Virus record (IMG/VR): IMGVR_UViG_3300042988_000010 | Location: 1 to 24,289 of that record | DNA length: 24,289 nucleotides | Source of the DNA: a virus | Strand: one strand, 5' to 3' | Shown here: in pieces, positions 13,274-24,289 of the stretch | Layout: each line of letters begins with the position of its first letter | Numbering within the stretch: the first letter of the stretch is position 1 | Translations under genes and position numbers: made by a program | The notes under the pieces: generated by a model | Databases searched by the model: none | What the model saw: only the letters and a program-made list of their open reading frames with translations | Told to the model about the DNA's origin: nothing

Positions 13274-16200
13274 ATGGAAGAAAATTCTCTTGACAGTTTG
13301 CTGGGGACTGAACAAAACCCAAATGAATTAGCAATTTTTCAGGACAATCCTGCTCAAGGACTAAAGCTCCCCACATCAGCTATTCGTAACCGTGCAGCTG
13401 TTACATCGTTGTTGTCTGATCAACCAGAACAATCTGTTGAGAACTTCCAAATGATGGTGGCTGAGGGTGAAGCTGGTGGTGATCAAATCACCAAGAGTAT
13501 TCAAGAACGTGCTATTACACGTGCCACAGCTGGTGATACACAGACTGTAATGAACATTCTTGCAGATCCTACTGTATCATTCGAGCAGAAGCAAGCTGTC
13601 GTTAAAAGCTTTAACAAAACAAAAACAGAACCTGCTACTGTGTTGATGACCAGTAACTTGACAGCAGCTAGTAAAGGTGAAACACCTGAAGCTGAGAAGT
13701 CTCGTTTGAAGGTAGCAGATATTCTTAATCAAGTTAACGATGCAATTGCATTGGAACAAGGCTTGGTTAACAGCTATGTCGATCGTCGTACATGGAAAGA
13801 CCCAACGTCTGTAGCTGATACAGCTGCTACTTGGTTTGCTCCATTCGGCACTAACATCGTTGCTGGTAAGGTTGGTTCAACTCAACTGCCTGAGAACGCA
13901 TCTACTTGGGATGTAATTAAGCAGTTTGCTCTGCCAGGCTCTTCAATCGCAGATATGCGTGATAAGTTGAAGTCTGTACCTGCTGATGAGCGTATTGCAA
14001 TGACTAAATCGTTGCTTGATTCTATCAGTGCAAAGAGTGGTTTGATCTTCTCTAGTGAGAACCAGATCAACCAGATGACATTGGCTAACGATATTGTCAA
14101 CGGTCAGTACACTACATTTGATCAGTGGGTGGATAACCTGTCTGGTTTGTTAGATGTGGTTGGTGTAGGTTTCCTCGCTAAAGGCGTTAAAAAGGCTGGC
14201 AAGGCTGAGAAAATCGTTGAGACAGCTGAAGGTACTACGAATGTAAATAAAGCCTATGAAGGCACTTTACGCCCTCGTACATTTGATGAGTTGCAAGGTA
14301 ATGTTGCTGGTCAACAAGATCGAATGATTAGTAAGCTTGAGTCTGAGAAATCAGATTTGCTTGGTACTGCTGGTAATAAGCTTGATAAAGGTGAAGTACG
14401 TAATCTGACACAACAGTTGACAGATGTACGTTCTAAGATGGTTCCTGAGACTGATGCTAAGGCATTGGCTAAGGATTTGCAGAAGACAGAGAAACTTAGC
14501 TTTAAGAACGCTATGTCTGAAGCAGAGCGTCGTATCCAAGATATTAACGCAGAGCTTAATGCACAAGCCCAACGTATCGAACAACAGATTGAAGCCAATC
14601 GTAAAGCCTCAACAGCTGAGCAACGTATTGCTGCTATTGAGAAAGAGATTGCACAGCTTCAGGCTAATCGTGTAGACGCTCCAGGTTCTTTGACTCCTAT
14701 TGCAGACTTGGTTCGTCGTATCGAGATGAAGGGTGTAGTGTCTACATCTAATCCAGCAAGTCCAGCTATCATGGCTCAGAATACGAATCCTGATAAGGCT
14801 CGTGCTTTGTTCCAAGCTACCTTCACTGGTGATGGTGCTGTATCTGAAGCTGTATATGGTACTGACAAGATCAGTGCTATTGCAGGTGATGTGTTCCCAC
14901 AGATTGTAACTGAGTCAGGTAAAGTGTCTACTAAGCCTGTTGATATTCAGCGTGGTGTGCGTAACTCAATGGATATTCCAGAAGAGATTATTGCTGCTGC
15001 ACATACATCTGGTGCTTTGGAATATACAGAAGCTGAGAAGGCTGCTGCTACAGCTAATAAGGTTAACGAGTTTAAAGCTGCTTCTGGTTTGCAAATGATG
15101 GAGAACATGAGTTCTTTCCGTCTTGATGGCAACCAATATAAGATTGCTGCTGTGTACGGAACACCTGAGGGTTCATTCCTTAACGCAGAACAAGCTGTTG
15201 AGCAAGCTATGTATGCTCTACGTCATCAAGGTATTATGCCAGAGCAGATTACTGTTTTGCGTAAAGAAGGTCTTGATCACGTTCCAGTTAAGCTGGAAGA
15301 TGTTAAAGGTGTTGAAGATAACTATCTGGTACGCGTAGAGACAAGTCAAGAGCTTGATCCTACAGACGTAACTAACTGGGAAATCTTTGATGTTAAGCGT
15401 AACTGGTTGGATCGTTTACCGCTGGTAAGTAACTCTAAAGGTTCTGCTTCTCGTTGGTTGTTTGATGCTGCTTCTATGTTGCATCCAATCTACACTGGTG
15501 CTGCTACTGTTGCTTCTGACAAAGCTGCTGCATTTGAAAAGCTTATGCTTGAAATTGCTAGCCAGTTCTCTGACAAGTACACAGCATTAGATAAAGCACA
15601 ACAAGTACGTGTTGATAACTACATCCGTGAAGCTAACGCTAAGCGTCTCCCATTTGATCAAGCTGATCTTATGGCACGTGGATTTACTAAAGCAGAGATT
15701 GACTCTGTTAAGTCTTGGCGTGATTTCTGGGATGGTCACTACTACTTAGAGAATCTTGACTTGGTTCGTACATTGAACTCTCAAGGTTATCAAAAGCTGG
15801 TATCTGCAAATGCTGATGTGTTTGCTCGTCCATTAGGTAGCTACCAAGGTGTTAATAAGCTTTACGATCCTACAACTGACATGGTATTGAATCCATCAGG
15901 ACAGGCTCTTAAAGACTTGTACGAGAATGGTGGTTATGTTGCACGTCTGCGTCGTCCTACACAGTTCGGTGAAGACACAGTTGAGTACATCATGGTTCGT
16001 AACAACGGTGATGAATACTTGCGTAAGCTCAACGATACAGATCAAGCACTGAATCGTATTGAAGGTTATTATCAAGTTCAGTATAAGGCTCCTCGCTTTG
16101 TTGACGAAATTGATGCTAACGGTTTACGTCGTGCTGTTGCTGTTGCAGGTGACACCAAGGAAGCTGAAGCATTCGCAGCTCGTATGCGAGCACAGAATCC

Positions 16201-18307
16201 TGATAAGTCTTACGTGACACGTGCTGATGATCGTGCTATGCGTACAAGCACAGACGACTGGTTTGATATTAACTCAGCCTCTGGTCGTGTTGCTCAACGT
16301 CATCGTGGTAAGCTTCTTGAAGATGCCACTGGTTTGAATTTGTTGGGTGAAGGTAGTTATGTCGTTGGCCCTGTAGATTCTGCAATCCATGCAGCCAAGA
16401 GTGTTGCTGGACGTACAGTTTCTCGTCCGATGTTAGAAGCTGCTAAAGCTCGCTTCCTCAATCAGTATCAGAAATACCTGCCGTCAGATGGGATGGGTGG
16501 TGTTAGATTCCCACGTGAAGTGGGTGAGATTGGTGCTAAAGGTGAGAATGTTTCTTCAGCTATTGCCGATGCTCGTACTACTTATGAGTATTTGCGTTAT
16601 CTGGAAAACGGATATATTAACGGAATGGATCAAACATTCAAAGCAACTCTTCATGCGTTGGCTGATATGTTTGGTGCACGTGGATATTCTAAAGCTGAAC
16701 GTGCTGCTTTACTTGCCTCTGAAACAAGTGTTTCTAGTTTAGGTAAGGGTAGTGTGTTTATGGCTTATATTGCCACTAACCCGTTGCGTCAATGGATTGT
16801 TCAAACTCATCAAGTTATTCGTACATGGTCTTATAACCCACAAGGTTGGATCAACGGGGATGTTATTAAATACTTCTCTCAATACACTGCTTACAAGGCA
16901 GGTATGCTTGATAACGCATCTAACGATATTAAAGAGTTTGCTAAGTTTGTTGATAACTCTGGCTTAATGGCAGCTGTTGATAAGCAGAACTTGGTTCGTG
17001 GTACATTGTTAGAAGCTGCTGATAACAGTAATAAGTTTACTAAAGCTCTGGCTTCTGTTCCTAACGCTCTTCGTCGTATCGGTTTTGATATGGGCGAATA
17101 TGCTAACACATTAGGACACGCTGCTGCTGTGTTTGAGAAATACAAACGAGAAGGGCGTAATGTTGCTGATGTGACTGTTAAAGATCAAATGCACTCCGAA
17201 GTACGTGCTTTGAGCTATGATATGAATCACGCAGGTGATATGCCATATAATCAGACAGCTCCTTCGATTGTTTTGCAGTTTATGCAAGTGCCTCATAAGG
17301 CTTTCTTGCAAGCTACTAATCGTCGTTTGGACGGTGCTACACGTGCTCGTATGATTGTTGCTGATACAGTTATGTGGGGTGTTCCAGGCTCTATGCTTGT
17401 TAGTGAGATGTTAGGTGGAGATATTCTCCCTGATAATCCTAAGCTGCGTGAACAAGTGGTACACGGATTAGAGAGTTTGTTGTATAACGAAGCTCTTCGT
17501 AAGTATTTCAAGACAGATGATATTAATATTGACTTCTCTAGCTTGGCTCCTTACGATATGCAAGGATGGGCACAGTTCTTCAAAGCAATGATGACTGAAG
17601 GTGCATTTGGTGTTATTACCAATAGCCCTGCTGGTGCATTGTTTATGAAAGAAGGAAGCCGTGTTCAAACAGCTATTGGTTCTGTTGGTCGTTTCTTTGG
17701 TGTCGTTAAAGACGATTACAAAGATCCACAAGAAGCTTTGTCTGTTATCAACGACGTACTCAGTATTTCCTCTGGTTGGAATAACGCAGTTAAAGCTCAT
17801 TTGGCTTTAGAGACAGGTAAGATTTACGACAAGTACGGTAACGTAATTGACGCTAAGGCTCATCCGTTTGAAGCTTATATGTTGGCTTTGGGTTTCCCAT
17901 CTGCTAACCAACGAGATATGTATCAGGCTATGAAAGCAGCATCTACCAAGACTAAAGACTTCAAACAAGAAGTTGAACAAGTCATGGATGAAATTTCACG
18001 TTATTATCAGCGTGAACTGTCGAAAGGCAATACTGATATAGAGTATATCACTAAGGTATCTTCTATCGTTCTGAAGAAGTACGAAAACAATCCAGAAGCT
18101 CAGCGTATCGCTAGCGAGTGGATGACTAAGAACCTCTTCCAGAATAAAGAACAACAGCTCATTTATCAAATGATGAAGGCAGCTGGTATTCCAGAAGGTA
18201 GCTCGCTTCGTGACAACATCCGTATGATGCCAGTAAGCGAAGAACAGAAACAAATGATGTTGCAACGCGTTGATGACGTGGAAAAAGCAACGAAGAAAGG
18301 CGAATAA
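13274..18307 (+). CDS. Giant internal virion (ejection) protein, 1677 aa, T7 gp16-like in position
   Basis: This is the largest gene in the window; T7 gp16 has 1318 residues. The N-terminal ~185 residues are helical, Gln/Asn/Thr-rich. A hydrophobic patch follows around 180-200 (AATWFAPFGTNIVAG), and a long coiled coil lies at about 350-470 (KLESEKSDLLG ... ERRIQDINAELNAQAQRI ... AAIEKEIAQLQANRV). Around residue 700 is the block NYLVRVETSQELDPTDVTNW plus VKRNWLDRLP, which recurs in large podovirus internal proteins. Near the C-terminus are two hydrophobic helices (about 1160-1176 and 1360-1383, VADTVMWGVPGSMLVSEML). Inferred role: part of the periplasm- and inner-membrane-spanning ejection tunnel. 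No transglycosylase motif is visible here; that activity is in a separate gene downstream. Confidence 0.85.
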   Translation: MEENSLDSLLGTEQNPNELAIFQDNPAQGLKLPTSAIRNRAAVTSLLSDQPEQSVENFQMMVAEGEAGGDQITKSIQERAITRATAGDTQTVMNILADPTVSFEQKQAVVKSFNKTKTEPATVLMTSNLTAASKGETPEAEKSRLKVADILNQVNDAIALEQGLVNSYVDRRTWKDPTSVADTAATWFAPFGTNIVAGKVGSTQLPENASTWDVIKQFALPGSSIADMRDKLKSVPADERIAMTKSLLDSISAKSGLIFSSENQINQMTLANDIVNGQYTTFDQWVDNLSGLLDVVGVGFLAKGVKKAGKAEKIVETAEGTTNVNKAYEGTLRPRTFDELQGNVAGQQDRMISKLESEKSDLLGTAGNKLDKGEVRNLTQQLTDVRSKMVPETDAKALAKDLQKTEKLSFKNAMSEAERRIQDINAELNAQAQRIEQQIEANRKASTAEQRIAAIEKEIAQLQANRVDAPGSLTPIADLVRRIEMKGVVSTSNPASPAIMAQNTNPDKARALFQATFTGDGAVSEAVYGTDKISAIAGDVFPQIVTESGKVSTKPVDIQRGVRNSMDIPEEIIAAAHTSGALEYTEAEKAAATANKVNEFKAASGLQMMENMSSFRLDGNQYKIAAVYGTPEGSFLNAEQAVEQAMYALRHQGIMPEQITVLRKEGLDHVPVKLEDVKGVEDNYLVRVETSQELDPTDVTNWEIFDVKRNWLDRLPLVSNSKGSASRWLFDAASMLHPIYTGAATVASDKAAAFEKLMLEIASQFSDKYTALDKAQQVRVDNYIREANAKRLPFDQADLMARGFTKAEIDSVKSWRDFWDGHYYLENLDLVRTLNSQGYQKLVSANADVFARPLGSYQGVNKLYDPTTDMVLNPSGQALKDLYENGGYVARLRRPTQFGEDTVEYIMVRNNGDEYLRKLNDTDQALNRIEGYYQVQYKAPRFVDEIDANGLRRAVAVAGDTKEAEAFAARMRAQNPDKSYVTRADDRAMRTSTDDWFDINSASGRVAQRHRGKLLEDATGLNLLGEGSYVVGPVDSAIHAAKSVAGRTVSRPMLEAAKARFLNQYQKYLPSDGMGGVRFPREVGEIGAKGENVSSAIADARTTYEYLRYLENGYINGMDQTFKATLHALADMFGARGYSKAERAALLASETSVSSLGKGSVFMAYIATNPLRQWIVQTHQVIRTWSYNPQGWINGDVIKYFSQYTAYKAGMLDNASNDIKEFAKFVDNSGLMAAVDKQNLVRGTLLEAADNSNKFTKALASVPNALRRIGFDMGEYANTLGHAAAVFEKYKREGRNVADVTVKDQMHSEVRALSYDMNHAGDMPYNQTAPSIVLQFMQVPHKAFLQATNRRLDGATRARMIVADTVMWGVPGSMLVSEMLGGDILPDNPKLREQVVHGLESLLYNEALRKYFKTDDINIDFSSLAPYDMQGWAQFFKAMMTEGAFGVITNSPAGALFMKEGSRVQTAIGSVGRFFGVVKDDYKDPQEALSVINDVLSISSGWNNAVKAHLALETGKIYDKYGNVIDAKAHPFEAYMLALGFPSANQRDMYQAMKAASTKTKDFKQEVEQVMDEISRYYQRELSKGNTDIEYITKVSSIVLKKYENNPEAQRIASEWMTKNLFQNKEQQLIYQMMKAAGIPEGSSLRDNIRMMPVSEEQKQMMLQRVDDVEKATKKGE

Positions 18308-18310
18308 TAT

Positions 18311-20140
18311 ATGGCTGAGTTTGGTACTCAAGCAACTCAGCTCTCCGCCCCGCAAGGGGCAGGGAGTGCTCCTCTAGCTCCTGTTCAAGAACAGGCAGTT
18401 AATACAAGTATGCTTCCTATGGTTGCTGGCGCTGCTCCAGCAATTGCTCAGGGTATTTCTAATCTGTTCCAAGCTAAAGCTCGTGAACAAGAGCAGATGG
18501 TGGTTCAACAGTATTCAAGTGAGATTGGTGCTGTTAATAATGCTATTGAGAATGGCACAATGACCACAGCCGAGGGTGCTGCTCGTTCACGCTCTATTAC
18601 TGGTAAATACCTCACTGGTTTTTCTCAGTACGGAGAAGCGATTAATAAAGCACGTGCTAACTTCTCTAGCGGTACACAGATTGGTATCGCTGAAGAAGCT
18701 GTTAAGACTGATGCTGAGATTCGTAAATCTGCTAAGCTTGCTGCTCAAGCTGATGGTATTGAGTTCTACGCTGGTATGAGTAAGGAAGCAGAAGATTCTC
18801 TGTTACGTGCTCATTCTTCTTCTGTGCGTATGCAAAAGGAGATGGAACGTCAGTTTAAGGTTAATGCTGAATCTCGTGCCCAAGGTTCTTGGGACAAAGA
18901 GATGCGTGATGCTCAAATGAAAGAGCAAAGCATTATCTTGATTAACGACTTAGCTGGTTCTAACCTTGAAGCTTCTCGCTCTATTGCTCTTGATTTGAAA
19001 GCACAAGTTGCTTCTGGTAAGAAGACATTCGATCAAGCCCGTATGGACTTGGCAATGCACTATACCCGAATCAATGCAGCTATTACAGCTGCTGGTGGTA
19101 AGAATCCTGAACTGGGTGCTACCTACTCTCGTTTGTTTGGTGACTTGCAGAAAGCTTCTGAAGCCTTGCTTGATCCTAAAGCTGATGCTGCTAACTTGCA
19201 AGGTCAGATTGACACAATCGTTAAGACACAAGCTCTTGGCTCTCTTCAGCGTGATCCTGTATTGCAACGCTCTGTTGCTGCTGCTGAACTGTTTAAAGGC
19301 AGTCCAATGGCATTGCAAGCAACTCTTGGTACATCTGCTAACGTAACCACTGCTGTTACTAAGATGATCTCTGGTGATCAGAACGTTCCTAACTTCGTTG
19401 GTGATCAACAAACTGAAGCTGGTGTTTATAAAGCACTTAAAGGCGGTTTGTCTGATGCTAATCGTAACGAAGGTAACACACAGTATCAGTTGGAAATCAA
19501 TCGTGGTGTAACTGAATCGTTACGTCAAGTTGGTAACAAAACTACATCTGGTGATGCTAAGTCTGTTCAAGAGTCTGTTCGTTTCTTCGCTTCTCCTGAG
19601 TACGGCGCTTGGGCTTCTAAGAACCAAGTTGATCCTCAAGTATTAAATAACGCTACACGTTCGTTCAAGTTGAATTACGAGCAAGTGGTTGTTAAAGGTG
19701 TACAACAACAAATCCAAGACGCATTTAGCACCCCTGCTGCACTTCCTGCTGCTGGTGTACTTAAACAGTCTATGGGTGGTGAGTCTGTTACTGTTGAAGC
19801 AATTAAACCTGAGAGCTTGGACGTTAAGTTCAGTGGTTCGGGTATTGTGTTTGACTTGAAGAATGTGCCTAATGATCCTGTTGCTTTGCGAAATGCTAAA
19901 GCTACAGTGGATTCGTTGAACAAAGCTCAAAAGGCTGTTAACGAGTTGGTTCGTCTTGGTGCACACTTGGAAGGTACTACAGATTACGCTAAGCATTGGG
20001 AAGCTAATAAACAAGCTTATATGCCTTTTGCTTTCCCATTCAAATCAGGTGACGTTGTTAACGGTCAAGAATACGTAGGTAAAGGAGTAGCATTTGACTA
20101 CCGAGATAAAGCCAACTGGCGAGCAACAGCCGCAAACTGA
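18311..20140 (+). CDS. Internal virion protein, T7 gp15-like in position
   Basis: The 609-residue protein is almost wholly helical and Ala/Gln/Ser-rich, without cysteine motifs or strong membrane segments apart from a short N-terminal MVAGAAPAIAQGI. Long helical stretches such as AREQEQMVVQQYSSEIGAV, QMKEQSIILINDLAGSN and DLKAQVASGKKTFDQAR are reminiscent of the helical core and tunnel proteins of podoviruses (T7 gp15, 747 residues, lines the periplasmic tunnel). It begins four bases after the giant protein. It is placed after rather than before the giant protein, unlike the 14-15-16 order of T7. A strong hairpin lies within its first codons, and its 3' end contains the ribosome-binding site and start of the next gene. 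The assignment is by position and composition only. Confidence 0.75.
   Translation: MAEFGTQATQLSAPQGAGSAPLAPVQEQAVNTSMLPMVAGAAPAIAQGISNLFQAKAREQEQMVVQQYSSEIGAVNNAIENGTMTTAEGAARSRSITGKYLTGFSQYGEAINKARANFSSGTQIGIAEEAVKTDAEIRKSAKLAAQADGIEFYAGMSKEAEDSLLRAHSSSVRMQKEMERQFKVNAESRAQGSWDKEMRDAQMKEQSIILINDLAGSNLEASRSIALDLKAQVASGKKTFDQARMDLAMHYTRINAAITAAGGKNPELGATYSRLFGDLQKASEALLDPKADAANLQGQIDTIVKTQALGSLQRDPVLQRSVAAAELFKGSPMALQATLGTSANVTTAVTKMISGDQNVPNFVGDQQTEAGVYKALKGGLSDANRNEGNTQYQLEINRGVTESLRQVGNKTTSGDAKSVQESVRFFASPEYGAWASKNQVDPQVLNNATRSFKLNYEQVVVKGVQQQIQDAFSTPAALPAAGVLKQSMGGESVTVEAIKPESLDVKFSGSGIVFDLKNVPNDPVALRNAKATVDSLNKAQKAVNELVRLGAHLEGTTDYAKHWEANKQAYMPFAFPFKSGDVVNGQEYVGKGVAFDYRDKANWRATAAN
18341..18366 (+). 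other. GC-rich hairpin with GCAA tetraloop in the 5' end of an internal virion gene
   Basis: GCCCC (18347-18351) and GGGGC (18356-18360) enclose GCAA, a stable GNRA loop. Beyond a C/A mismatch the outer CTCTC/GGGAG bases can also pair. There is no T tract, so it is not a terminator. It begins 30 bases after the start codon and may simply reflect the codons used, or may slow ribosomes or protect the transcript. Confidence 0.45.
20081..20096 (+). promoter_or_regulatory. Ribosome-binding site and TTG start inside the preceding gene
   Basis: AAAGGAG at 20081-20087 stands six bases before TTG 20094. An in-frame TAG at 20088-20090 excludes any earlier start, and the next in-frame ATG (20157) would delete 21 residues and has no comparable site. 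The near-perfect site fixes a TTG start and a 47-base gene overlap. Confidence 0.85.
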
Positions 20141-21497
20141 TAATGGCCCTTGGAACATGAGCTTTGATAAACTGATGCAAGCTGCTGGTAAAGCAGTTGA
20201 CACAGCCAAAGCTTCTGTAGTAACTCCTTCGGATCCCTCAGCGGCTCCTGAGACACCTTCTAAGAAGCCTTGGGAAATGGCCTTTGATGAGATTAAAAAG
20301 TTAATCACTGGTCAACCCCCTAAGCAACCAGAAACAGCCCCTTCTAGCCCCGTTAAAGAGGCTCCTAAGGGGGCTTATTTCGCTCCTGAGAAAGATAATA
20401 AGTATGCTTCAGCTGTTCGTAGTTATTACGAGACACAATTGAAAGCAGAAAGCCAGCTACGTCATTATGGCCCAGATGGTAATCTTATTCGTTCTAACAA
20501 GGGAGCTGCTGGTGTGTCTCAGGTGATGCCTAAGACTGGTGACACTCCTGGTTATGGAGTGAAACCATTACAGTCTGAAACTGAGGATGAATATCGTAGA
20601 TTTGGTTTTGACTATATGGTTGCTATGAACCAGAAGTACAAAGGAGATATTCGTAAAGCTCTAGCGGCGTATAATTATGGCCCAGGTAATGTGGACAAAA
20701 TTATTAATCAAGCACGTAGATCAGGTACGAACTGGGAGACACGCTTGCCAAAAGAGACAAGGGATTATTTGACTAAGATTGTAGGGAATGATAAAGTTCA
20801 AAAAGAACTATACCCTAGTTTTGGTACACCGACAAATCCCACAAGCGGAGAACGAGCACGTACCAGTGTTCTGAAAGAAGCCAGTAAAGTTCCAGAATAT
20901 ACTGAACTAATTGATTTCCTATCTGAACGTCGTGCAGTTCCTGATATTAGGGTAGGTTATTTATCAGGCACTGGAGAATTTAGGACACCTAGTCTTTTAT
21001 TTAAAAGTACGGTTTCTGACCGAGGTGTAATAACTGTCGGTAATGATTCATTACAAGATGACAATAAAGGTGGAGATTTCTCAACAGGTACTCTTGTACA
21101 TGAACTGACACACGCTGCTGATCGTCAGATTGGAAGACTTGCTACTCAGTTAGAGAAAAAGAAAGATCTGTCGGAATCTGAAAAACAATTCTTAGATAGT
21201 TTCGATAAGTCGTTAAAATATAAACAACGAGGTAAAGAAAACTATTATCAAACATTTGCTAAGGTATTAGCTAATGCTATTGATAAGGAGTGGAGGGGTG
21301 AAAACTCTAACTATAGATCAACAGATGCTGAATTAGTGGCTTTTGGTATGGGTAACTCAACACGTAAAGGTCAATATAGATATGGAGAAGCTCCAGAACA
21401 TATTGATTCTTCTATTGCTACTGAGTTCCGTATTCTTTTACAACAAGCAACAAAGGTTGCTAAAGAGCATAGTGCATCTACAAAGCAAGGAAGATAA
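20094..21497 (+). CDS. Virion lytic transglycosylase fused to a zincin-like HExxH domain
   Basis: The 467-residue protein has at least three parts. Residues 1-95 are Pro/Thr/Lys-rich and carry two copies of a short motif, PWNMSFD (19-25) and PWEMAFD (59-65). Residues ~100-230 form an SLT-type lytic transglycosylase: catalytic Glu119 in ESQLRHY, GAAGVSQVMPKTG (137-149) and AAYNYGPGNV (191-200). Residues ~255-465 contain LVHELTHAADRQIG, a zinc-peptidase HExxH (H336, E337, H340), with E413 in STDAELVAFGMG as a plausible third ligand. The transglycosylase cleaves glycan strands to open the wall for DNA ejection; in T7 this domain is the N-terminus of gp16. The second domain's substrate is unknown; it could cut peptide cross-links or virion proteins. 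Start chosen from the strong ribosome-binding site. Confidence 0.88.
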   Translation: MTTEIKPTGEQQPQTDNGPWNMSFDKLMQAAGKAVDTAKASVVTPSDPSAAPETPSKKPWEMAFDEIKKLITGQPPKQPETAPSSPVKEAPKGAYFAPEKDNKYASAVRSYYETQLKAESQLRHYGPDGNLIRSNKGAAGVSQVMPKTGDTPGYGVKPLQSETEDEYRRFGFDYMVAMNQKYKGDIRKALAAYNYGPGNVDKIINQARRSGTNWETRLPKETRDYLTKIVGNDKVQKELYPSFGTPTNPTSGERARTSVLKEASKVPEYTELIDFLSERRAVPDIRVGYLSGTGEFRTPSLLFKSTVSDRGVITVGNDSLQDDNKGGDFSTGTLVHELTHAADRQIGRLATQLEKKKDLSESEKQFLDSFDKSLKYKQRGKENYYQTFAKVLANAIDKEWRGENSNYRSTDAELVAFGMGNSTRKGQYRYGEAPEHIDSSIATEFRILLQQATKVAKEHSASTKQGR

Positions 21498-21769
21498 TGG
21501 CTAAAAAAGGTGAATATAAAAAGGGTGCTAAGGCTGACAGTGTTCGTCAGCGAGCATATAATTCCAGCCCAGAGCAAAAGAAGAGACGAGCTGAGCGTAA
21601 TCATGCACGTGCTATTATGGAGCGTAAAGGTGCTGTTCGTAAAGGAGACGGTAAAGACGTAGATCATCGTAATCACAGAACATCCGACAAGAGTGCAAAG
21701 AATCTTAGTGCTATGCCTAAATCTAAGAATCGTGCAATGAACCAATACGACAAACGGAAAAAGAAATAA
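21497..21769 (+). CDS. Small basic HNH-like protein
   Basis: The 90-residue protein is extremely rich in Lys/Arg. Residues 49-79 (KGDGKDVDHRNH, then DKSAKNLSAMPKSKNRA) match the core of small HNH endonucleases: the V-D-H of the first strand (H57), the N of N-L (N69) and the closing N (N78). The upstream zinc-binding or second-histidine elements of a full HNH nuclease are not evident, so it is either a minimal nuclease-like fold or a degenerate DNA-binding version. HNH proteins often assist terminases in other phages. It shares one base with the preceding stop (TAATG), with AAGGAAG upstream, and its own stop overlaps the next start the same way. Confidence 0.7.
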   Translation: MAKKGEYKKGAKADSVRQRAYNSSPEQKKRRAERNHARAIMERKGAVRKGDGKDVDHRNHRTSDKSAKNLSAMPKSKNRAMNQYDKRKKK

Positions 21770-22059
21770 TGCCGAAAATTCTTGATCGGTTAGTTAAACA
21801 GCTTACAGCAAATGGTATGCCTAAAGATAAAGCATACGCAGTTGCTACTGCTAAGCTTCAGCAATCTGGTAACTTGAAAAAAGGAACCACTGAAGCTACA
21901 GCTAAAGGTGTTAAACGTGGTAATATGACACCTGCTCAACGTGCTAAAGACCGAGCAGCTAAAAAGTCAGGAGGTAAACCTTCAGACTATAAATACAACA
22001 AACATAATAACTCTGCTGTCAAAGGTAAAGTTAACTCATCTGTTAAGAAACGGAAATAA
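21769..22059 (+). CDS. Small Lys-rich phage protein of unknown function
   Basis: The 96-residue product begins with an amphipathic helix pattern (ILDRLVKQLTANGMPKDKAYAVATAKLQQSG) resembling a small helix-turn-helix of the kind seen in conserved phage proteins of this size. The rest is a highly basic, low-complexity tail (MTPAQRAKDRAAKKSGGKPSDYKYNKHNN). It has no cysteine or membrane segment. It is translationally coupled to the HNH-like gene (TAATG) and followed three bases later by the PhoH-like gene. The charge suggests nucleic-acid binding, perhaps DNA condensation or a minor virion role, but nothing in the sequence proves it. Confidence 0.7.
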   Translation: MPKILDRLVKQLTANGMPKDKAYAVATAKLQQSGNLKKGTTEATAKGVKRGNMTPAQRAKDRAAKKSGGKPSDYKYNKHNNSAVKGKVNSSVKKRK

Positions 22060-22062
22060 ATT

Positions 22063-22746
22063 ATGGCAAGCACAAAATCAGCACGTAAGAGAAATGTACA
22101 AGAGAGTAATGTAGAACCTATTCGTGGATTCGATAGTATCCAACCGAAGAATATGGCTCAGCAAATCTATCTTGAGGCAATCGAGAGAAGCGATGTTGTT
22201 TTTGGAATTGGTAGTGCTGGCACAGGGAAAACCTATGTAGCAGCTTCATACGCAGCGGAGAAGCTTTACTACCGAGAGACAAGTAAGATTATTGTGACAC
22301 GACCTAACGTTGAAGCTAGTCGTAGTCTTGGTTTCTTACCAGGAGAGTTGGAAGAGAAATACGCACCGTATCTAGAGCCTTTTGAAGGTGTCTTTATCCG
22401 AGCGTTTGGTAAGTCCTTGTATGAGTTGTTTAAGAAACGTGGTCAGATTGATCCACGTCCTCTTGGCTTCATGCGAGGAGCTACGTTTGATGATGCTATT
22501 GTGCTGGTTGATGAATGCCAGAACATGACTGAGAAAGAGTTTAAATTACTGCTTACCCGTATAGGTCATAACAGTAAGGTTATCTTTTCAGGAGATAGTC
22601 GCCAAGTAGATATTCCTGATTCAGGTCTTATGTCTACTATTCAACGACTACAATACATTCCTAGTATTGAGGTGGTAGAGTTCTATCCCTCAGATATTGT
22701 TCGTAGTGATTTGTGTAAACAGATCATTCTTGAGTACGAACGATAA
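22063..22746 (+). CDS. phoH: PhoH-like P-loop ATPase
   Basis: The 227-residue protein shows Walker A GSAGTGKT (50-57), the PhoH signature VTRPNVEASRSLGFLPGELEEK (78-99), Walker B IVLVDE (146-151) followed by CQNMT, and sensor-like FSGDSRQVD (175-183). This matches PhoH, an ATPase of the helicase superfamily 1-like group, common as an auxiliary gene in aquatic phages. Its role in phages is unsettled; links to phosphate stress, RNA handling or helicase activity have been proposed. It has no N-terminal PIN/nuclease domain, so it is the short form. It is the last gene of the rightward operon, directly before a strong terminator. The start is ATG 22063 with a weak ribosome-binding site. Confidence 0.95.
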   Translation: MASTKSARKRNVQESNVEPIRGFDSIQPKNMAQQIYLEAIERSDVVFGIGSAGTGKTYVAASYAAEKLYYRETSKIIVTRPNVEASRSLGFLPGELEEKYAPYLEPFEGVFIRAFGKSLYELFKKRGQIDPRPLGFMRGATFDDAIVLVDECQNMTEKEFKLLLTRIGHNSKVIFSGDSRQVDIPDSGLMSTIQRLQYIPSIEVVEFYPSDIVRSDLCKQIILEYER

Positions 22747-22751
22747 AAATT

Positions 22752-22785
22752 AAGCCCGTAAGGAGAAATCCCTACGGGCTTTTTT
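22752..22785. terminator. Strong terminator between convergent operons
   Basis: AAGCCCGTA (22752-22760) pairs perfectly with TACGGGCTT (22773-22781), with two further G:C pairs inside and a T run to 22785. In the other orientation the same stem is followed by TTAATTTTTA, so it may also terminate the leftward glutaredoxin transcript. It lies six bases after the PhoH stop and before the leftward genes. Confidence 0.93.
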
Positions 22786-22794
22786 ATTGCCTAT

Positions 22795-22980
22795 TTAACT
22801 TGTTTTAATATAGATAAATGGGACAGTTCGTACACCTGGGTGAAGCTCTTTAAACTCAGCGGCTGAAATATCTTTACCAATTTCAATCTCTGTAAATAGC
22901 TTACCTTGTTGACGAAGAGTTGCCTTAGCTGTGATACAGCCAGGGCAGTTAGGTTGGGTATATACTGTAATATCTTCCAT
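22795..22980 (-). CDS. Short glutaredoxin-like protein
   Basis: The 61-residue protein begins MEDITVYTQPNCPGCITAKATL, with the redox-active CPGC (residues 12-15) after the first beta strand. It continues through the EIEIGKDISAAEFKE helix to PGVRTVPFIYI, which contains the cis-proline TVP loop. It then stops after three residues, where glutaredoxins normally continue with a strand, the glycine-pair glutathione-binding turn and a last helix (~20 residues). It would reduce the C-terminal disulfide of ribonucleotide reductase, whose gene lies eight bases upstream on the same strand; AAGGAA precedes the ATG. Because of the short C-terminus, glutathione use is doubtful and thioredoxin-like (NrdH-type) partnering is possible. 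Confidence 0.85.
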   Translation of the reverse strand: MEDITVYTQPNCPGCITAKATLRQQGKLFTEIEIGKDISAAEFKELHPGVRTVPFIYIKTS

Positions 22981-22988
22981 ATAATTCC

Positions 22989-24289
22989 TTAGCGGATTGG
23001 ACAGTGACCTGTTTCACAGTCATCTTCCAAATCAGCATCAATATCGTTAGACGCATTCAAGTCAATCGGTTGTAGATTAGCTACGTATGCGTCATATTCT
23101 TCTTTTGTTACGACTGCTTGGGGTAGGTAGGAATATCCCAAATCTTTTGCAGACTTTGTGGGGTCTGCCCGAAATAAGAAAGATACTCCAACATAATTAT
23201 CCCAATTATCATGTAACCATTCCACAATTGCATCTGCTTCCTCTGGAGAATAGCTAATAGTTGCCGATACGTTTTGTTGACACCAGTTTTGCATCAACAT
23301 TTTGTATCGTTCGAGTTGTGACACAGCACTCTCAGTATTAACTTCCATTACGATACCGTCTTTCTCAAACTTATCGAATGGTACGTCATCCCATTTAACT
23401 GGGAACGTAATCAATACAGCACTTGGGTCAATAGGATGATCAACCACTTTGTATCCAGCTGCACGACACAGAGGAACCAAAGGATCGAACTTACCATACG
23501 TTACATTGTTAAAGATGTACTTACCTAGAGGCTTATGAACCCCTTCGGTTGTATCCATAACTTTAGAGAGTGTACCTGATGGTTTGATTGTTGTGACGTT
23601 CTTAGGACGTGGAAGCCCAAGTTGGTCAGCCATTGAGTAAGCTCCTGCAACAGCTGTTCGTTGGAGTTCTGCGTAGTCATATGCAGACAGATCGGGTCGT
23701 CGAACGATTCCAGTAATGCCCACTCCACATAACCGAAGGAACTCGTTATTGAGATGCCATGCTTCTTGCAGAATTCCGTCACGAAGATCAACACAAGTCT
23801 GTCGGTAATTGGCCCGTGCTGCAAGCTCAGTTGCTCGTCGTAAGCCTGCTGAATCGCCTTGGAACTTTGCAAGGTCAACCTCCGTCAAATTACAGAATGA
23901 TTTATTACCCAAAAGAATCTCAGCACAAGGATTAACACCCTTGAACCAAGGAGCACGTTTACGAGCTGCTACACCGTTAATAAAGCCAGGCTCACTACCA
24001 CCAGCAGCAACCATCAGCTTAATTACATGAGCAATTTCATCCTTAGAAGGACGATGATTGAACAGCAAGCTGTTGTTAGATTGTGCTCGTTGTGGATTGT
24101 TTACCCACCATTCATTCTTCGCAACTGCGAACTCAGCCCACTCATCTTCTCCATACTCGAATAGAGCAATTTCAGCTGAACGGCGAGAAGAGAGGATAGT
24201 ACCCAACCAGTTAACAATGTCAAGAATGTCGATACGAGTAAGCAAGCTACCGCTACGACGATTAAGGATTTTAAAAATCGCTTCGTAAG
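22989..24289 (-). CDS. nrdJ: Class II (adenosylcobalamin-dependent) ribonucleotide reductase, C-terminal part (5' end outside window)
   Basis: The frame runs open to the right edge, so the N-terminus lies beyond the window; the TTG at 24243-24245 is internal. About 432 residues are visible. The leading part NRRSGS...DILDIVNWLGT and RRSAEIALFEYG are reductase barrel motifs. NPCAEILLGNKSFCNL gives the catalytic thiyl cysteine, the C-x-E glutamate and the second redox cysteine 11 residues later, the same spacing as C408/C419 of the Lactobacillus leichmannii monomeric enzyme. The barrel continues with TTIKPSGTLSKVMDTTEGVH, and the C-terminus ends CETGHCPIR, the swinging C-x4-C tail. It converts ribonucleotides (triphosphates in the monomeric type) to deoxy forms using host-derived B12. 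It forms a leftward operon with the glutaredoxin. Confidence 0.93.
   Translation of the reverse strand, partial: YEAIFKILNRRSGSLLTRIDILDIVNWLGTILSSRRSAEIALFEYGEDEWAEFAVAKNEWWVNNPQRAQSNNSLLFNHRPSKDEIAHVIKLMVAAGGSEPGFINGVAARKRAPWFKGVNPCAEILLGNKSFCNLTEVDLAKFQGDSAGLRRATELAARANYRQTCVDLRDGILQEAWHLNNEFLRLCGVGITGIVRRPDLSAYDYAELQRTAVAGAYSMADQLGLPRPKNVTTIKPSGTLSKVMDTTEGVHKPLGKYIFNNVTYGKFDPLVPLCRAAGYKVVDHPIDPSAVLITFPVKWDDVPFDKFEKDGIVMEVNTESAVSQLERYKMLMQNWCQQNVSATISYSPEEADAIVEWLHDNWDNYVGVSFLFRADPTKSAKDLGYSYLPQAVVTKEEYDAYVANLQPIDLNASNDIDADLEDDCETGHCPIR

Follow-up and report, generated by a model that had tools for sequence, protein, structure and literature searches.

The question raised by this locus is what a phage gains from a protein that joins a lytic transglycosylase (SLT) domain to a putative zincin-type metallopeptidase, and on which target the second domain would act. 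The window, i.e. the whole stretch of DNA analysed, is a 24,289-base fragment of a Zobellviridae podophage from an IMG/VR record. It holds structural genes in the customary arrangement (terminase, capsid, tail tube A and B, internal virion proteins), and its portal protein is 62% identical to those of Pseudomonas phage PA11 and of the oyster-associated T4S1 phages. The gene in question (20094..21497, plus strand, as are all features given below in this form) encodes 467 aa, comprising a PW-tag region, the SLT transglycosylase and the zincin-like domain. This "slot gene" lies directly after the genes of two ejection proteins, one IVP-D-like (13274..18307, 1677 aa; internal virion protein according to phrog_18427 and phrog_12003) and one IVP-C-like (18311..20140; phrog_18587, with synteny to the Klyazma and T4S1 phages), and its beginning overlaps the end of the latter by 47 bp. 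Downstream follows a small HNH-type gene (21497..21769; phrog_4590), which is conserved across the slot. Judging from this gene order, the slot protein is likely to be carried in the virion. It could be argued that the gene product serves lysis as an endolysin and is not an enzyme of the virion, as the slot genes of related phages are annotated as lysozyme or endolysin; however, the window contains a separate group of genes at 623-1589, including an M15-type peptidase, a lytic domain is missing altogether from several slot relatives, and the slot sits immediately behind the ejection-protein genes, so that we consider an endolysin role very unlikely. The M15-type peptidase gene (1221-1589), found beside small genes at 623-1224, is probably the lysis enzyme of the window phage.

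The slot gene starts with TTG. This start is supported by a Shine-Dalgarno-like AAAGGAG (20081..20087), identified from the sequence six bases upstream, and by its retention in three relatives (L008, L133 and L134). The N-terminal region contains two copies of a PW motif, PWNMSFDKL (residues 19-27, 20148..20174) and PWEMAFDEI (residues 59-67, 20268..20294), followed by the SLT domain (residues about 107-231, 20412..20786), to which homologous SLT-only proteins occur in the same slot of other phages. The PF01464 profile matches residues 133-211 with 33.5 bits, against a curated cut-off of 21.3. The expected catalytic glutamate, E119 (20448..20450), lies in ESQLRH, of which the E-S pair is conserved in the SLT slot relatives, and the GAAGVSQVMP (at 137) and AAYNYGPGNV (at 191) motifs are likewise common to them. 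An earlier, sequence-only reading of this DNA had named these motifs and had given the gene coordinates and the positions of E119, HELTH (336-340) and E413 exactly as we find them. It had also described the transglycosylase as a stand-alone gene, which agrees with the absence of any SLT match from the gp16-like IVP-D protein in a Pfam profile search. In phage T7 it is the N-terminal transglycosylase of the ejection protein gp16 that opens the peptidoglycan at entry, and such a lytic domain can shift from one ejection protein to another (PMC8954989). By analogy, the SLT domain of the slot protein presumably opens the peptidoglycan at entry in the same way, the difference being that in the window a small gene of its own encodes the transglycosylase, to which a peptidase has been joined. 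The closest described counterparts are the "lysozymes" of T4S1-k141_462158 and T4S1-k141_502596 (PQ867852, PQ867841), which occupy the same slot after IVP-D and IVP-C and whose SLT domain is about 40% identical to that of the window; unlike the window protein, they are only 182-199 aa long and lack both the C-terminal domain and the PW motifs. A match of Acinetobacter phage Ab2712 extending up to residue 349 was discarded as alignment overhang, as the protein concerned is an ordinary Schitoviridae SLT protein without HExxH.

The C-terminal domain (residues about 252-460, 20847..21473) carries the HELTH motif (21099..21113). The chance expectation of an HExxH is 0.004 per 467 aa of the composition of the slot protein, and no second one was found among the other structural proteins checked in the window. 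A scan of viral contigs with the single domain sequence missed the family; it was found by means of a two-sequence alignment with the relative from contig L014 and then a five-sequence alignment, which yielded 60 loci, and removal of identical sequences left 44 non-identical domains including the window copy. The 43 distinct homologues all come from IMG/VR. Searches of 50,697 phage records, of 72,556 plasmids and of PHROGs found none, tblastn with the domain and several homologues gave no match among named phages or plasmids, and the domain falls outside the Pfam and PHROG families. As far as these sequence searches reach, it is an unnamed, undescribed family of uncultured phages. The only match in genome collections is a 52-residue one in a Spartobacteria MAG (L131:6001-6123).

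The sequence-only reading had proposed conservation of H336, E337, H340 and E413 in homologues as a check, and the check is passed. The three HExxH residues are invariant in all 44 sequences, 38 of which were matched by the C-terminal search pattern alone, not by that for HExxH, and were therefore not selected for possessing the motif. E413, the candidate third zinc ligand (in ELVAFGMG, 21330..21332), is part of neither search pattern and is present in 43/43 covering sequences, the sequence of L126 being broken at that site and left out. The distance between the second His and this Glu varies from 54 to 86 residues across the family. In HIDSSIATE (residues 436-444, 21399..21425), H436, D438 and E444 are also invariant, although these three positions lie within a search pattern. 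Finally, D343, three residues past the HExxH, is Asp in 41 of 44 sequences.

An AlphaFold2 model of the window domain, built with 42 sequences (pLDDT 81, pTM 0.82), runs from a helix pair through three strands to a long helix bearing HELTH (residues 329-354), and then to a later helix with E413 (residues 411-421) and a final helix that starts from the conserved HxD. A model of the free-standing homologue L079 (pLDDT 85, pTM 0.82) exhibits the identical order of helices and strands. Two predictions thus agree in placing HELTH on a helix and E413 on the conserved helix that follows, so that the helix check proposed in the sequence-only reading is passed as well. A mixed full-length alignment, which had put zincin fragments on the SLT domain, was left out of the folding. 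Among viral models, Foldseek found one clear relative, A0A6J5LIM5 (E 2.8e-6). Weaker matches were to the Vibrio phage phi 1 virion RNA polymerase (prob 0.95) and, in Pseudomonas phage Ab05, to an internal core protein (prob 0.92). Among solved structures there was no significant fold match (best E 0.32-0.40); the weak ones repeatedly include zincins, for example MATCAP, PprI, lethal factor and selecase. PDB sequence searches with the family profiles returned nothing meaningful. The weak Pfam matches of the family are largely to metallopeptidases (M91, SprT-like, DUF6782, M48 and Aspzincin). The best recurring one, Peptidase_M91 (PF14891), is seen in 12/42 members with a best E of 0.005-0.01, the bit scores among the matches listed (13.7-17.6) falling below the threshold of 25, while MPTase-PolyVal (PF18818) was reached from a single member, at a best E of 0.016 and with 15.3 bits, below its threshold of 27.5. 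A match to Phage_int_SAM_5 (Pfam, E about 0.02) was set aside, as it covers a single family member. Since no solved structure matches significantly, it is the model, the motif and the conservation that speak for the zincin fold, and on this basis we regard the domain as very probably a zincin-type metallopeptidase. The earlier proposal, a transglycosylase with a distinct metallopeptidase-like domain behind it, is thereby supported, by the PF01464 match for the first part and by the family-wide HExxH and the model for the second. Zinc would be bound by H336, H340 and E413 and the water activated by E337, as the full conservation and the predicted fold suggest.

How does this domain relate to the zincins already described in phages? 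Zincin-like domains, with an HExxH and a glutamate on a helix, are the commonest domain of the polyvalent proteins, and fusions of zincins with lysozyme or transglycosylase were noted for the N4 polymerase group in 2017 (Iyer et al. 2017, PMC5512222). Virion-delivered zincins and such fusions were thus on record, and the suggestion that a bifunctional wall tool or an entry protease would be new for this type of phage was overstated. The slot protein contains two unrelated enzyme-type domains, SLT and zincin-like, which is one of the properties of a polyvalent protein. Its C-terminal domain resembles the polyvalent MPTase in the combination of HExxH with a glutamate from a later helix and, in common with one phage-type clade, in the Asp three residues after the HExxH, but the His that this clade conserves after strand 2 (PMC5512222) is absent: no conserved His was found in residues 290-316, at the end of strand 2. 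Because of this missing His and the score below the PF18818 cut-off, we did not file the domain as a polyvalent MPTase; we set it apart from members of that clade, yet by analogy it would seem to work like one. Another likeness is to the C1 domain of the N4 virion RNA polymerase, an ejected virion protein, in whose structure an HExxH, zincin-like domain was seen (2025 preprint, PMC12633501); the Foldseek match to the related polymerase of Vibrio phage phi 1 points in the same direction. However, the C1 domain is part of a giant polymerase, and its sequence similarity to the window domain is undetectable.

The most informative comparison is with another IMG/VR contig, L008, which is 97% identical to the window over 19523-20785, 21496-21773 and 22053-24289. 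Its slot protein matches that of the window through residue 231 with 98% identity and then stops with KIVGKKNG, overlapping the next gene; the shared part of IVP-C is 97% identical, and the zincin is absent. The window-only segment comprises 710 bp (20786..21495), in place of which L008 has 7 bp, and its GC3 of 0.19 is lower than in any of 64 comparison stretches from the other genes of this phage (0.25-0.51). As L008 and more distant relatives (L133, L134, L137, L138, L002, L003, L026, L027 and L028) are SLT-only and the GC3 of the segment is the lowest, the simplest history is a gain of the zincin domain in the lineage of the window. This gain appears to be recent and to have replaced the last few codons of an SLT-only ancestor. 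The exact fusion is carried by one contig only, itself a 24,289-base fragment, no other viral contig has the junction sequence, and the base composition shifts there, as would be expected if an SLT gene and a foreign zincin had been joined by an assembly error. Nevertheless, the frame remains open into the conserved downstream gene, both flanks are 97% identical to L008, and a sister zincin is held independently in the same slot by L014, which makes a chimera extremely improbable. The gene after the HNH gene (21769-22059 versus L008:1551-1679) is wholly different despite the 97% identical surroundings. The conserved HNH gene thus lies between two segments that have been exchanged, and it is conceivable that their exchange was driven by HNH.

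Because the near-identical L008 is SLT-only, particle assembly, release of the SLT domain and maturation of the shared virion proteins should all be possible without the zincin in this lineage. This bears on the view that the domain is a processing protease, which would either cut its own linker and free the SLT domain, or trim neighbouring ejection proteins, either inside the head or while they are being ejected. Such a role has been proposed for polyvalent-protein zincins and P1 DdrB (PMC5512222). It would be compatible with the low confidence of the SLT-zincin linker (about residues 232-250) and of the first 11 residues of the model, which may be exposed, and with the location of zincin family members in the head-gene region. 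On the other hand, neither L014 nor the free-standing members have an SLT domain to free, and L008 combines nearly the same SLT and IVP-C proteins with no zincin at all. We therefore favour an accessory, host-directed peptidase over self-processing, to which we assign only a minor share of the probability.

The occurrence of the domain in other uncultured phages is relevant to the proposal, made in the sequence-only reading, of a tool that opens the wall by cutting both glycan and peptide. A free-standing zincin gene of about 200 aa lies beside or between terminase and portal in six contigs (L076, L079, L081, L083, L129 and L130), and free-standing genes are also found in L123 and L125. The recurrent position in the six suggests a link to the head or to packaging. 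Elsewhere the domain resides within ORFs of about 720-1700 aa, several of them between terminase and portal. Six of the 13 large ORFs scanned also contain an SLT domain, and seven, one of which is a fragment, do not; the SLT-zincin pairing thus recurs but is not required. The repeated pairing, in the window and in these six ORFs, would suit a bifunctional wall opener, in which the zincin cuts the peptide cross-links of peptidoglycan beside the glycan cut. It is countered by the zincins without SLT (in L014, in the other large ORFs and in the free-standing genes) and, conversely, by the SLT of L008 without zincin. Moreover, no cell-wall-binding domain was found, and an M15-type enzyme is already encoded in the window. 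It also counts against this reading that most peptidoglycan peptidases of phages are of the M15, M23 or cysteine types and not HExxH...E zincins, and we consider it improbable. As a separate observation, a 1459-aa ORF between terminase and portal (L071:4102-8481) contains SLT, DUF6973 and the zincin domain, and is likely a polyvalent protein.

Overall, the best explanation, which we hold with roughly even confidence, is that the slot protein supplies an optional protease, carried in the virion, which reaches the host at entry and probably acts on host proteins. In the scenario we propose, the N-terminal PW motifs may dock the slot protein to the ejection proteins; the SLT domain, acting through E119 as in other members of its family, would cut the glycan strands of peptidoglycan during entry; and the zincin, an optional effector of entry, would cleave a host protein either in the periplasm or, once ejected, in the cell interior. 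That a host protein is its main substrate we regard as slightly less than evenly probable. Zincin domains occur widely among the proteins that phages deliver at infection; Iyer et al. (2017, PMC5512222) left the choice between self-processing and host targeting of polyvalent zincins open. The window and L008 form a natural plus/minus pair, i.e. near-identical phages (about 97% over the shared stretches) with and without the zincin, and with such a pair the choice between processing of phage proteins and attack on the host becomes directly testable.

The finding suggests, moreover, that Zobellviridae possess a modular cargo slot and that uncultured phages encode a peptidase family not described before. 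The slot proteins share the repeated N-terminal PW motif, with 36 PW pairs in 4,552 aa against about 0.04 per 100 aa expected. Behind it stand different payloads: SLT, a GLAQF lysozyme type, no recognizable enzyme (L016-L019 and L025), a PTEKSM stretch followed by the zincin domain without SLT (L014), or SLT plus zincin, as in the window. The zincins of the window and L014 are sisters (SH 0.98, UFBoot 99), which indicates one slot-specific zincin lineage behind two different payloads. It is tempting to regard the locus as a plug-in cargo slot, with the PW motif as a loading tag, exchangeable payloads and an optional host-directed protease delivered into the cell at entry, but we put this forward only as a tentative model. 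The second lysozyme type (GLAQF or similar, phrog_4067 transglycosylase) was observed behind the PW motifs in the close relatives L012, L015, L022, L023 and L029. A conserved PTEKSM...P.E.A stretch ends several of the enzyme-less slot proteins (L017, L018 and L019) and occurs also in L014.
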